A model generated the notes under the pieces. The model was not told where the DNA came from. It worked only from the letters and a program-made list of their open reading frames with translations, and did no database searches. The translations under genes were made by a program, and so were the position numbers. This document shows positions 2,885 through 35,580 of a stretch of 40,739 bases of DNA, in pieces. Numbering within the stretch: the stretch's first letter is position 1; every line of letters begins with the position of its first letter. The DNA is from Capsulimonadaceae bacterium (GTDB lineage Bacteria > Armatimonadota > Armatimonadia > Armatimonadales > Capsulimonadaceae): assembly GCA_031292625.1 (NCBI GenBank), contig JARLGU010000013.1:1-40739 (forward strand). Reading direction: 5' to 3'.

Positions 2885-3295
2885 TCACCGCCGCTTTGCG
2901 CCCATGCGGTGCGCCGCGTAAAGACACAGAGCCGCAATCACGATCTGCGAGGCGGGGCTTTTGACTGAGCGGCCGTGCCCAATAAACCAGCGATGATCCG
3001 TGTGCGTTGGAAACAGCATGCGTTGGACGAATCCAAAGCGATGAAGCATATTCTCGCCGTCGGGAGACAGTCCGCCGAGCGCTCCAAGCATCTCAGGCGA
3101 CGAAATCCCATGACGCCACCAGACATAAGCGATCGTCAGCGCCGCGAGAGGCAACTCGACATGCACGTCATAGTCGCGGTGCGGAATCAGATCGGCCACT
3201 CCGTGCGAGACGACGCCAGCCGAGAACGCATTGCCGGCCTTACCCACGCGCCCGCCAACGAACGCGCCGATGGACGCATGAACCCAGGGCATCAT
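2885..3295 (-). CDS. small integral membrane protein with HGVADLIPHRDYD motif
   Basis: A 136-residue protein with hydrophobic stretches at the N terminus (about 5-35), the middle (about 48-60) and near the C terminus (about 115-128). The segment HGVADLIPHRDYD (about 31-43), rich in His and Asp, and later HTDHRWFIGHG resemble the membrane-bound metal-dependent hydrolase-like proteins that carry conserved His/Asp in membrane-proximal loops. That similarity is loose and I assign no function. Two ATG codons are adjacent (3295 and 3292); AAGGAA lies about 11 bases upstream of the first. It follows the lytic transglycosylase gene by 44 bases on the same strand, so it is probably the last gene of that operon. 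Confidence 0.7.
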   Translation of the reverse strand: MMPWVHASIGAFVGGRVGKAGNAFSAGVVSHGVADLIPHRDYDVHVELPLAALTIAYVWWRHGISSPEMLGALGGLSPDGENMLHRFGFVQRMLFPTHTDHRWFIGHGRSVKSPASQIVIAALCLYAAHRMGAKRR

Positions 3296-3339
3296 CGATT
3301 CAATTTCCTTACTGCCATGAATGAAAATACCGGTTCATG

Positions 3340-4509
3340 TCACAGACCGCAGATTCTCTTGTACAGCGAGGCCACCTTACGGACATATCGCCTGGTCTCG
3401 CGATAGGGCGGGACGCCCTGGTAGCGGTGAACGGCGCCGCTGCCGGCATTGTATGCGGCCATCGTCAGAATCAACGTGTTGATCGGAACCAAACCCTGCG
3501 CCGTCGCGCCTCCATAACTCTTTACGTGCGAGCTCAGGATATGCACGGCCGCGCCGATGTTCTGGACGGGATCGTAGGCGTCGGCAACCCCGAGACCGGC
3601 GGCGGTGCCCGGCATGAGTTGACTAAGGCCCATCGCCCCCGTACGCGATGTCGAGTACGGATCAAAGTTCGATTCCGCGAGGATCATCGCGATCACCAGG
3701 CGAGGGTCCAGCTTCTCGTACTCGCTGTAAAACAGGATGCTCGTCGTGATCGTGTCCACCTGAAGCGGCGTCAAGTGCGAGTTCGATCTCGAAACGAACG
3801 CGCGGTACGGCCCGTAGACGCTCAGCGCCGCCTGTGAAAGCCGCGCGATCGGATGGCCGCCGCCGTAGTCGGCGCGAGCATCGTATCTCGCCGAACGGCT
3901 GGCCGTGCCGCCAGACGCCCTTGCGCGCTGCGCTGCCTTAGCGGCCGCGGCAACGGCGGCCTGCTGAAGCGCCGCCGCTTCATCGCGCTCCGCCTGTTCC
4001 ACCGCGCCTTCCGGAGCGGACGCAATCATCGGGACAATCGACCGAAGGGCGGCGATCGTCGCGGCATCCGGCACGGCGACCAGAGCGCGCAGCGTACTTC
4101 CCGTATCGAGCCACTGCCAGTCGTTGTCGCTGGCTACGGACACATTGATCGATCCGGCGCGCGTCTCGATAATCAGCATGACGCCCGTGTCCAGCGTCGC
4201 CTTACCCGCGACGCGCCCCGCGATCTCCACCGTTTGTCCGGCAAAGTCGTCAAGCACAAACGAAGGGCGCGTGGAATTGACAAGGGACTGGAACGGTCCG
4301 GCGACAGCCTTCCGGATGACGAGGAAGTCGTGTCCAGGATCACGCGCTTCCGAAGACGACGCGGCGACATCGACCAGGGCCGCGCTTCGCCCCGTAACCG
4401 GCGGCGTCTCCGCAAGACCTCGCGGCGACACTCCGATCAGAAGAAGCCCCATTCCGGCGCCCGCCAGGATCGCCCGGCAGACGATAAATCGCAAAAGTCG
4501 CATGCCCAT
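3340..4509 (-). CDS. lytic transglycosylase (SLT domain), secreted
   Basis: Predicted periplasmic murein lytic transglycosylase that cleaves the MurNAc-GlcNAc bond of peptidoglycan. The 389-residue product has an N-terminal signal peptide (MGMRLLRF..., hydrophobic to about residue 28). A middle beta-rich region (about 70-150) looks OB-fold-like, then comes an Ala/Gln-rich helical stretch (about 160-205). The C-terminal SLT domain starts about residue 245: catalytic Glu in ILAESNFDP (Glu279), then TGAMGLSQLMPGTA and MAAYNAGSGAV, the three classic SLT motifs, and YVRKV near the end. The frame is open further upstream to 4590, but that would remove the signal peptide from the N terminus; ATG 4509 or ATG 4503 fits best. 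It lies 37 bases after the phospholipase-D-like gene. Confidence 0.9.
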   Translation of the reverse strand: MGMRLLRFIVCRAILAGAGMGLLLIGVSPRGLAETPPVTGRSAALVDVAASSSEARDPGHDFLVIRKAVAGPFQSLVNSTRPSFVLDDFAGQTVEIAGRVAGKATLDTGVMLIIETRAGSINVSVASDNDWQWLDTGSTLRALVAVPDAATIAALRSIVPMIASAPEGAVEQAERDEAAALQQAAVAAAAKAAQRARASGGTASRSARYDARADYGGGHPIARLSQAALSVYGPYRAFVSRSNSHLTPLQVDTITTSILFYSEYEKLDPRLVIAMILAESNFDPYSTSRTGAMGLSQLMPGTAAGLGVADAYDPVQNIGAAVHILSSHVKSYGGATAQGLVPINTLILTMAAYNAGSGAVHRYQGVPPYRETRRYVRKVASLYKRICGL

Positions 4510-33701: not shown

Positions 33702-33775
33702 TGGCTCAGGGGCAGGGATTCGAACCCCGATAATCAGAACCAAAATCTGATGTCCTGCCATTGAACGACCCCTGA
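33702..33775 (-). tRNA. tRNA-Gln (anticodon UUG)
   Basis: A complete 74-base cloverleaf: acceptor TCAGGGG with CCCCTGA, D arm GTTCAATGGCAGGAC, anticodon stem TCAGA/TCTGA with loop TTTTGGT giving anticodon UUG at 34-36, short variable loop, T arm CGGGG-TTCGAAT-CCCTG, discriminator G and an encoded CCA (33702-33704). Reads CAA (and CAG by wobble) codons. Confidence 0.95.
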
Positions 33776-33785
33776 ACGCGAGGGA

Positions 33786-33815
33786 ATTATACTCGCAGGC
33801 CCGCCCGCGCGTCAA
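33786..33815 (-). promoter_or_regulatory. promoter of tRNA-Gln
   Basis: On the minus strand TTGACG (33815-33810) and TATAAT (33791-33786) are separated by 18 bases. The -10 box ends 10 bases before the mature tRNA 5' end at 33775, a normal arrangement for a stable RNA gene. Confidence 0.75.
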
Positions 33816-33904: not shown

Positions 33905-34604
33905 CACGCACGTGTCAGAACGCGGAATAAATGCATCCCGCGCGCGCCACGCACTGAAGTACGTGTCTGTGAAAAACGAGAAGCCCGCTGAACCGGACTC
34001 AGGACAGCCCGCTTCAGCGGGTTTGGCGCAGTCTCAAGACACGGGTTTAAACCCGTGAACGACGGCGGCGAACGGTACACGCACGTGTCAGAACGCGGAA
34101 TAAATGCATCCCGCGCGCGCCACGCACTGAAGTACGTGCCTGTGAAAAACGAGAAGCCCGCTGAACCGGACTCAGGACAGCCCGCTTTAGCGGGTTTGGC
34201 GCAGTCTCAAGACACGGGTTTAAACCCGTGAACGACAGCGTGGAATTGTTGCACGCACGTGTCAGAGCGCGCGGAATAAATGCATCCCGCGCGCGCGCCA
34301 CGCACTGAAGTACGTGTCTGTGAAAAACCAGAAGTCCGCTGAACCGGACTCAGGACAGCCCGCTTCAGCGGGTTTGACGCAGCCTCCAGACACGGGTTTA
34401 AACCCGTGAACGACAGCGGCGAACGGTACACGCACGTGTCAGAACGCGGAATAAATGCATCCAGCGCTCGCGCCACGCACTGAAGTACGTGTCTGTGAAA
34501 AACGAGAAGCCCGCTGAACCGGGCTCAGGACAGCCCGCTTTAGCGGGTTTGGCGCAGTCTCAAGACACGGGTTTAAACCCGTGAACGACAGCGGCGAACG
34601 GTAC
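33905..34604 (+). repeat. four tandem copies of a ~175-bp palindrome-rich repeat
   Basis: Units at 33905-34077 (173 bp), 34078-34251 (174), 34252-34428 (177) and 34429-34604 (176). Each starts CACGCACGTGTCAG and contains GCGGAATAAATGCATCC, the stem CCCGCTGAA...TTCAGCGGG (or the TTTAGCGGG variant), a shorter hairpin CCCGCTTCAGCGGG, and a perfect 18-bp palindrome CACGGGTTTAAACCCGTG followed by AACGACAGCGGCGAACGG. Units differ by scattered substitutions and 1-4 base indels. The array lies between tRNA-Gln and a TPR gene. Flanks 33816-33904 and 34605-34785 hold no feature I can support. Confidence 0.92.
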
Positions 34605-34785
34605 ATTGGTGAACCACAAGATTCTCACGCCCCAAGTTCTCTTGTGCGCGTCCTTTGATGCACGCTCGATCCAAGACATAAGGAACACCGGGAACAGCTC
34701 CGGCACGTCACCTAATGTGCCAAAATGACCGTCAGGAGCACGCGGCCGCTGAACGGAGCGAGGCCCTCTCGTACCCTGGATTCCA

Positions 34786-35580
34786 ATGATCTGCATCTTT
34801 AAGAAATTTCGTCTATCGTCCTGCGCATTTTGCGCGCTGCTGATGCTGCTGCTCGCGTTCGGGTCGTCCGGGATTGCGCTTGCTCAAAAGCCTACCACCT
34901 CATTGAGTTGGACGACGGAGGCGTGGACGGACGACAACCGGCCTTACGCGGAAACGAGGATGCGCGTAAGAGACGAGCTTGCAAGCTCGCGCGACCCGGC
35001 GAGGATCGTCGCAAGCTATCGGCAATCGGCCCGGCGCCAGCCTCGCAACGCTCTGGCAGTGTATTGCTGGGCGGCCGCCGCCTGGGAGGCATCGGTTAAC
35101 CCCGGAAGCGAACAGTTTTACCGTCAGGTTACGACGGGCGTCCGGGAGGCCCTTGCTGTACCGCTTTCACCGCACACCTATGACTACGCGCGGATGCGGT
35201 ACCTTTTCGAGGCAGATGCCAACCGGCGAATGCGGGAGATGAAGGAGTTAGGCGATCGGCTCTTAGCGGTCGATCAGAGAGATCCGCCTGTTCTCTATCA
35301 AACCGCGCTGGCGTATACGGACGACGTCCCCAAAGCGGCCGCATTGCTCGACGAGGCAATCGCGCTGGCCCCGACGAGCGCCGCAAATCACGGCACGCTC
35401 GGCTACATTTACGTTATGGCTTTTCTCTATCGCAATGGACCGGAAGATTACGCACGCAAAGGAATCACGGAGCTGAGAATATACCTCTCTCTCTCGCCAA
35501 AGAACGAGGATTCATGCAACTGGGCACGCATCGGCATCGATGCGGCCAACCGGAAACTCTCGCATCGCGCTCGCCGGTAA
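34786..35580 (+). CDS. secreted TPR-repeat protein, function unknown
   Basis: A 264-residue protein with a signal peptide (hydrophobic about 12-30, GIALAQ cleavage region). The rest is mostly alpha-helical with TPR-like pairs, for example RIVASYRQSARRQPRNALAVYCWAAAAWE (about 75-103), LGDRLLAVDQRDPPVLYQTALAY and AALLDEAIALAPTSAANHGTLGYIYVMAF (about 183-211). TPR domains mediate protein contacts; the partner is unknown. The start ATG 34786 lacks a clear ribosome-binding site. It stands alone after the tandem repeat array. Confidence 0.7.
   Translation: MICIFKKFRLSSCAFCALLMLLLAFGSSGIALAQKPTTSLSWTTEAWTDDNRPYAETRMRVRDELASSRDPARIVASYRQSARRQPRNALAVYCWAAAAWEASVNPGSEQFYRQVTTGVREALAVPLSPHTYDYARMRYLFEADANRRMREMKELGDRLLAVDQRDPPVLYQTALAYTDDVPKAAALLDEAIALAPTSAANHGTLGYIYVMAFLYRNGPEDYARKGITELRIYLSLSPKNEDSCNWARIGIDAANRKLSHRARR

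Follow-up and report, generated by a model that had tools for sequence, protein, structure and literature searches.

The tandem array beside tRNA-Gln in the window (the whole stretch of DNA analysed, 40,739 nucleotides from a Capsulimonadaceae bacterium) is made up of four copies of a unit that is probably a non-autonomous REPIN/BIME-like element of an IS200-like Y1 hairpin system, amplified locally. Each unit would represent a pair of inverted ends, that is, two REP-like double hairpins with an outer and an inner hairpin each, without a transposase gene. A non-autonomous element was among the roles listed in the original prediction, which was made from the DNA alone, and this proposal is supported by the evidence below.

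Tandem Repeats Finder delimits the repeat in the window at 33905-34605, with a period of 173, 4.0 copies and a score of 1224. The four units, whose borders are our own cut, measure 173-178 b, are arranged head-to-tail and share 88.8-95.5% pairwise identity, which agrees with the earlier description of four units of about 175 bp next to tRNA-Gln. The features of the array and its surroundings are as follows; R1 and R2 are covariance models built from copies of the unit and from hairpins flanking Y1 genes in other genomes, respectively.

33905..34605, plus strand: tandem array of four REPIN-like units (repeat finding; R1 matches every unit)
33905..34079, plus strand: unit 1, 175 b
34080..34252, plus strand: unit 2, 173 b, with a 3ʹ end like that of the dispersed copies
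34253..34430, plus strand: unit 3, 178 b
34431..34605, plus strand: unit 4, 175 b
33947..33999, plus strand: left double hairpin, unit 1 (E 0.042 with the held-out model R2); counterparts at 34120-34172, 34298-34350 and 34473-34525 (R2, E 0.0083, 1.4e-4 and 3.3e-4)
34006..34058, minus strand: inverted right double hairpin, unit 1 (E 1e-5 with the held-out model R2); counterparts at 34179-34231, 34357-34409 and 34532-34584 (R2, E 3.4e-5, 6.1e-6 and 3.4e-5)
33948..33965, plus strand: left outer hairpin CACGCACTGAAGTACGTG of unit 1; others at 34121, 34299 and 34474
34040..34057, no strand: right outer palindrome CACGGGTTTAAACCCGTG of unit 1; others at 34213, 34391 and 34566
33982..34022, no strand: inner hairpins of unit 1, with an alternative mutual pairing as one long stem
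33702..33775, minus strand: tRNA-Gln(TTG), 129 b from the array and outside the element
33786..33815, minus strand: promoter-like site TTGACG-18-TATAAT, 11/12 consensus matches, between tRNA-Gln and the array

On the plus strand, each unit runs from the outer hairpin CACGCACTGAAGTACGTG through a spacer to the inner part CCCGCTGAACCGG and the inner hairpin, and through a further spacer to the palindrome CACGGGTTTAAACCCGTG. The inner hairpin is CCCGCTTCAGCGGG, or CCCGCTTTAGCGGG in units 2 and 4. The loops are TGAA on the left and TTCA or TTTAAA on the right, so that each unit pairs two double hairpins in inverted orientation. The 18-bp palindrome reported earlier is perfect in all four units, and its 12-bp core, with at most one mismatch, occurs four times in the window compared with 0.04 expected. 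The second outer hairpin, CACGCACTGAAGTACGTG, had been overlooked, although every unit carries it. The stem CCCGCTGAA/TTCAGCGGG ascribed to each unit is exact in unit 1 but not in the others, where units 2 and 4 have TTTAGCGGG and unit 3 has TCCGCTGAA; the deviating sequence attributed to the last unit, CCGGGCTCAGG, is present in unit 4. None of the 36 columns in the outer hairpins varies among the four units, compared with 25 of 142 elsewhere (p 0.003, gapped columns at the left edge excluded). Folded as RNA, unit 1 is more stable than shuffles on its minus strand (z -4.43, 0 of 200 shuffles as good) and less markedly so on its plus strand (z -2.18, 4 of 200). By eye, no GTAG adjoins the hairpins of the unit. 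On the side away from the tRNA, the array's neighbor is an ORF starting at 34786 on the plus strand, which has no match in Pfam or NCBIfam. Elsewhere in the window, a 30-b tandem repeat with 4.9 copies and 98% matches lies within plus-strand ORFs at 2617-2763.

The original prediction had named confinement of the unit to this site as telling against it; the unit does occur elsewhere. BLAST finds four diverged copies in the genome, on contigs C7, C41, C60 and C27, and R1 was built from these and the four array units. At E ≤ 0.01, R1 gives 27 matches in the genome, which correspond to the four units and 14 other, diverged places (C41, C7, C27, C34, C37, three on C60, C18, two on C38, C21, C20 and C24), four of which had themselves gone into the model. 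Two of these places score weakly, the latter of the two on C38 (24.2 bits) and the one on C24 (25.7 bits). At many places the matches fall on both strands, as expected of an inverted pair. Most copies have one inner hairpin, while the array and the copies on C41, C7 and C34 have two, in an alignment of the array units with 13 of the 14 dispersed places (all but C24). Inversely related sequence continues beyond the outer hairpins in the genome's own copies (by eye); units 1, 3 and 4 are without the common 3ʹ end of the copies and retain the hairpins. The count of 14 may miss decayed copies. Hairpins with a four-base centre were counted in 440,739 b (the window and a sample of 400,000 b); only nine had the loops of interest together with stems of at least 6, four of them in the array, so that the genome is not REP-rich. 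Of the 14 places, 8 overlap no ORF of at least 100 aa. Two observations count against a REPIN-like reading: the other 6 places do overlap such an ORF, and covariation among the copies within the genome is slight (3 of 25 pairs). A BLAST match on C46 (locus L009, E 0.0016) was dropped as a copy, as by eye it looks coding.

R1 also matches in 13 of 60 relatives, all from other genera, which are reached by this structure model only; BLAST of unit 1 found no match in the same 60, and BLAST of the array found none among plasmids and phages. In Ca. Theseobacter exili (L056), a similar chain of hairpins scores 26.2 bits with R1 at a locus chosen via one such hairpin. The pattern CCACGCACTGAAGTRCGTG occurs in 29 stretches of GTDB genomes, many from few MAGs. 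In the relative G022 (L151-L154 and L165-L184), a four-hairpin element is present, by eye, in 24 copies. It comes in two mirror-image forms, distinguished by which inner stem lies on which side, and the left and right inner stems are regularly unlike. In an Actinomycetota MAG (L063, 3224-3734), an IS200-like transposase ORF (3279-3707) lies between two direct copies of CCACGCACTGAAGTGCGTG, which is the left outer hairpin of the array except for one base. In two Pacearchaeota MAGs (L048, L052, L057, L065, L069 and L073), the same hairpin sits, by eye, inside longer nested hairpins with repeated flanks, in a dispersed structured repeat.

A search for a transposase gene, one of the checks initially proposed, led outside the window. 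The genome has a single Y1 (HUH) transposase gene, on contig C45, found as the one Y1_Tnp match (PF01797) and by searches with its own protein and a relative's protein. The HUH histidines, the W and the Y of its product are in place and invariant in 28 aligned proteins. In NCBIfam, the protein scores 82.8 bits against IS200 (cut-off 55) and 35.0 bits against REP_Tyr (cut-off 80), and it reads YVINQ, without the Y---NP of class-2 RAYTs. The predicted structure, with a pLDDT of 85.7 when 27 relatives were used compared with 37.7 from the protein alone, resembles the ISDra2 and IS608 transposases (best 2xm3, E 6e-10), and E. coli TnpA-REP (4er8) ranks 30th in the comparison. The gene is flanked in inverted orientation by a palindrome around CCCTTAAGGACC plus a hairpin, CCCCGTGAACGGGG or CCCCGTTGACGGGG. 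This layout is that of the array unit, but the stems differ, which counts against a cognate link between the two. The inverted repeat scores 22.5, above the 99th percentile of controls and below the highest control. The gene on the 5ʹ side is one that we take to be comM/yifB-like. By eye, the last ~60 codons of this gene are repeated directly after the Y1 gene (L014, G000:C45:2407-5751, 1140-2700), and a third, decayed copy of its 3ʹ end follows a small HicA/HicB-like pair; this 3ʹ end appears to have been targeted repeatedly by insertions that brought duplication.

The kinship of the array's hairpins to those beside Y1 genes is evident from model R2, which was built from 16 double hairpins flanking Y1 genes elsewhere and contains nothing from this genome. 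The 16 were chosen by eye for their hairpins, so that pair counts lean towards structure; with this lean, the stems of the seed, though altered, still pair, with 95.1% of cells paired and both partners exchanged in 12 of 13 pairs, a result matched by none of 500 shuffles. In the 440,739 b, R2 matches all eight array half-units, two inverted ones per unit, at E 6e-6 to 0.042; of the other matches below 0.05, the C41 copy accounts for two, and a single one (0.045) lies elsewhere. Across the whole genome, with 150 of 3036 candidates scored, the nine top matches all lie at the array or dispersed copies: one each at C60, C27 and C41, two at C37 (one per strand) and four in the array. A point against the link is that the array units appear in this search by their minus-strand half only.

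Whether an element and a gene flank share their actual stems depends on the genome, with agreement in one (G020) and none in two others, this one included. R1 matches adjoin Y1 genes in two relatives, G020 and G025. The dispersed elements of G020 have hairpin words that recur beside two of its five Y1 genes (words from 4 of 4 elements at L109, from 3 of 4 at L145) and are absent beside the other three, and the same words were not found at eight loci of other genomes. Of the five Y1 loci of G022, four lack all four word patterns of its common dispersed element, and the sequence at the remaining one, L120, differs from that element. Shared stems of element and Y1 flank are seen in G020 only, plus beside the gene in G025.

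Inverted bracketing of the gene is common among the relatives. The original prediction was right that no RAYT lies near the array, insofar as the window is concerned, yet the C45 gene and most Y1 genes of the relatives carry similar inverted hairpins. Y1 genes occur at 63 places in 27 of 61 genomes, and all 63 were read. Inverted flanks were scored for the 58 genes (the genome's own included) with at least 200 b on each side, five having been dropped for short sequence, with a threshold of 20.5 set at the 99th percentile of 348 cross-genome control pairs, the highest of which scored 26. Flanks of 44 of the 58 exceed the threshold and 38 exceed the highest control, whereas none of 2000 random places of the genome reaches 20.5. 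A hairpin of at least 5 pairs is present in 39 of these 44 inverted repeats and two or more in 24, compared with 25% and 3.6% of shuffled blocks. Moreover, around 30 Y1 genes, hairpins of at least 6 pairs number 119 in the 18,643 b within 350 b of the gene versus 52 in the 51,025 b beyond 500 b. The 14 genes that fail the test include L146 and L117, both with tandem hairpin units beside the gene; L145, which also has such units, passes. Within one genome, the Y1 proteins have a median identity of 42% in 69 pairs (highest 83%), a divergence indicating that these are not fresh IS copies. A related gene occurs at three places in Bacteroidota plasmid records; in the two records examined, the inverted flanks score 33 and 23, only the first above the highest control. 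At L117 (G023:C10), hairpin units with a tandem period of 128 b flank the Y1 gene on either side, and head-to-tail repeats of 12-13 b adjoin Y1 genes in the downstream flank at L110 (G001:C51) and the upstream flank at L108 (G005:C210).

By their motifs and a nearer match to IS200 than to TnpA-REP, these proteins appear to be IS200-like and subclass-1.2-like. Three of the 63 proteins were unreadable and left out; among the 60 others, DH[VI]H is found in 55, WQ in 46, Y---Q--HH in 49 and all three in 36. The C45 protein has DHIH, WQ and Y---Q, and of the HH only the second H. In the part of the 2018 classification drawn on here, these three motifs are the signature of TnpA-Y1 subclass 1.2, which is found mainly in Cyanobacteria and Bacteroidetes, is entered as "no" for REPs and does not share IS properties (PMC6006769). 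As described in that part, subclass 1.2 resembles the present genes in the three signatures, a length of about 150 aa and several divergent copies per genome (PMC6006769); the genes here differ in belonging to another phylum and in that most have inverted hairpin flanks (44 of 58; 39 with hairpins). An open-access literature search turned up no paper that we recognised as describing REPs of this subclass.

Other known systems share parts of this arrangement. In the portions of the literature consulted, REPs, BIMEs and REPINs are likewise short, dispersed palindromes in inverted pairs, at times reiterated in tandem with flanking DNA, and their class-2 RAYTs (TnpA-REP) are low-copy Y1 genes within inverted copies, with own ends per gene (PMC2817692, PMC3733652, PMC6006769); tandem clusters of known REPs that include flanking DNA are described (PMC3733652). 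By the same portions, the unit differs in having two hairpins per end rather than the one of a REP and 14 dispersed places rather than usually over 100, and the proteins in having Y---Q rather than Y---NP (PMC2817692, PMC3733652, PMC6006769). Additionally, the GTAG/GTGG tag at the hairpin foot is not found at the array unit, though it is present in G020 (GTAGCCGGCTTCAGCCGG). The initial assignment to REP/BIME-type elements thus holds for a composite grown into an array but not for a canonical GTAG REP of a class-2 RAYT, since no GTAG was seen by eye and the transposase is IS200-like. The IS200/IS605 elements IS608 and ISDra2 have hairpins at their ends and provide the nearest solved protein relatives by sequence and predicted fold; they differ from the present genes, whose flanks are inverted rather than in direct orientation and whose copies are divergent within a genome. 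TIRtrons, as far as the source excerpt describes them, also have Y1 genes (TIRYT) between inverted repeats that are partly self-complementary and partly dispersed as dimers or groups (PMC3733652), but 20 of 26 TIRYTs in the classification's consulted part fall in subclass 2.1, outside the IS200-like class (PMC6006769).

Three other readings were weighed. The array could be a selected one, offering gyrase or nucleoid-protein sites or a transcription barrier between divergent neighbors, as the invariance of the outer hairpins among units and four terminator-like sites on the minus strand might suggest. This is unlikely, as four such sites compare with 2.1 +/- 1.5 in shuffles, and the promoter-like site between the array and tRNA-Gln would place the array outside the tRNA transcript; the 14 other places, as far as they were read, are not such arrays, and a function could equally be a later use of the element. 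The array's tie to tRNA-Gln is mere neighborhood, nothing more. Slightly less likely still is a MITE of a DDE transposase, with the outer ends (GCGTGTG.. / ..CACACGC) as terminal inverted repeats and the hairpins as passengers. By eye, inversely related sequence does extend beyond the outer hairpins in the genome's own copies and in several G022 copies, but what is common to other genomes and Y1 flanks is the hairpins and not the outer ends, and it is the hairpins that units 1, 3 and 4 kept when they lost the common 3ʹ end.

A structured RNA, either a cis-regulator or a small RNA in tandem, would account for the stable fold of the minus strand and for the element being sense to the next ORF at the array, C7, C41 and C27. 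However, at C60 (260783-260873) the element is antisense, the next genes of the copies are unrelated, the stems, spacers and number of inner hairpins vary freely among copies, and no Rfam family fits, the tRNA being the only match in the Rfam search; this reading is highly improbable.

On the REPIN/BIME-like reading, double hairpins of this kind would terminate, in inverted orientation, small REPtron-like units built around IS200-like Y1 genes, mostly with the subclass 1.2 signature. By analogy with IS608, ISDra2 and TnpA-REP, a Y1 transposase, presumably including the element's cognate enzyme, would bind the hairpins on single-stranded DNA, such as the lagging-strand template, and would cut and rejoin beside them, by which copies would spread. 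Slippage or unequal exchange may later have duplicated one copy beside tRNA-Gln in tandem, along with short flanks, and the array may have no further role. The element in the array is small and hairpin-rich and was probably once mobile.

Taken alone, the array is an unremarkable case of such an element multiplying locally, and the wider meaning lies with the transposases. We lean towards the view that subclass 1.2 constitutes a REPtron family of its own, in which the gene lies between inverted double hairpins that keep their loops and layout but have different stems at different genes, and from which gene-less REPIN-like ends have spread, sometimes into arrays. If subclass 1.2 genes own hairpin ends, the published border between REP-bearing and REP-less Y1 transposases needs redrawing. 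Such a family, if real, would mean that REPs have arisen independently by a second route, starting from IS200-like members of the family, and would offer many natural pairs of a protein and its cognate hairpin for studying HUH hairpin recognition and the origin of REPs.
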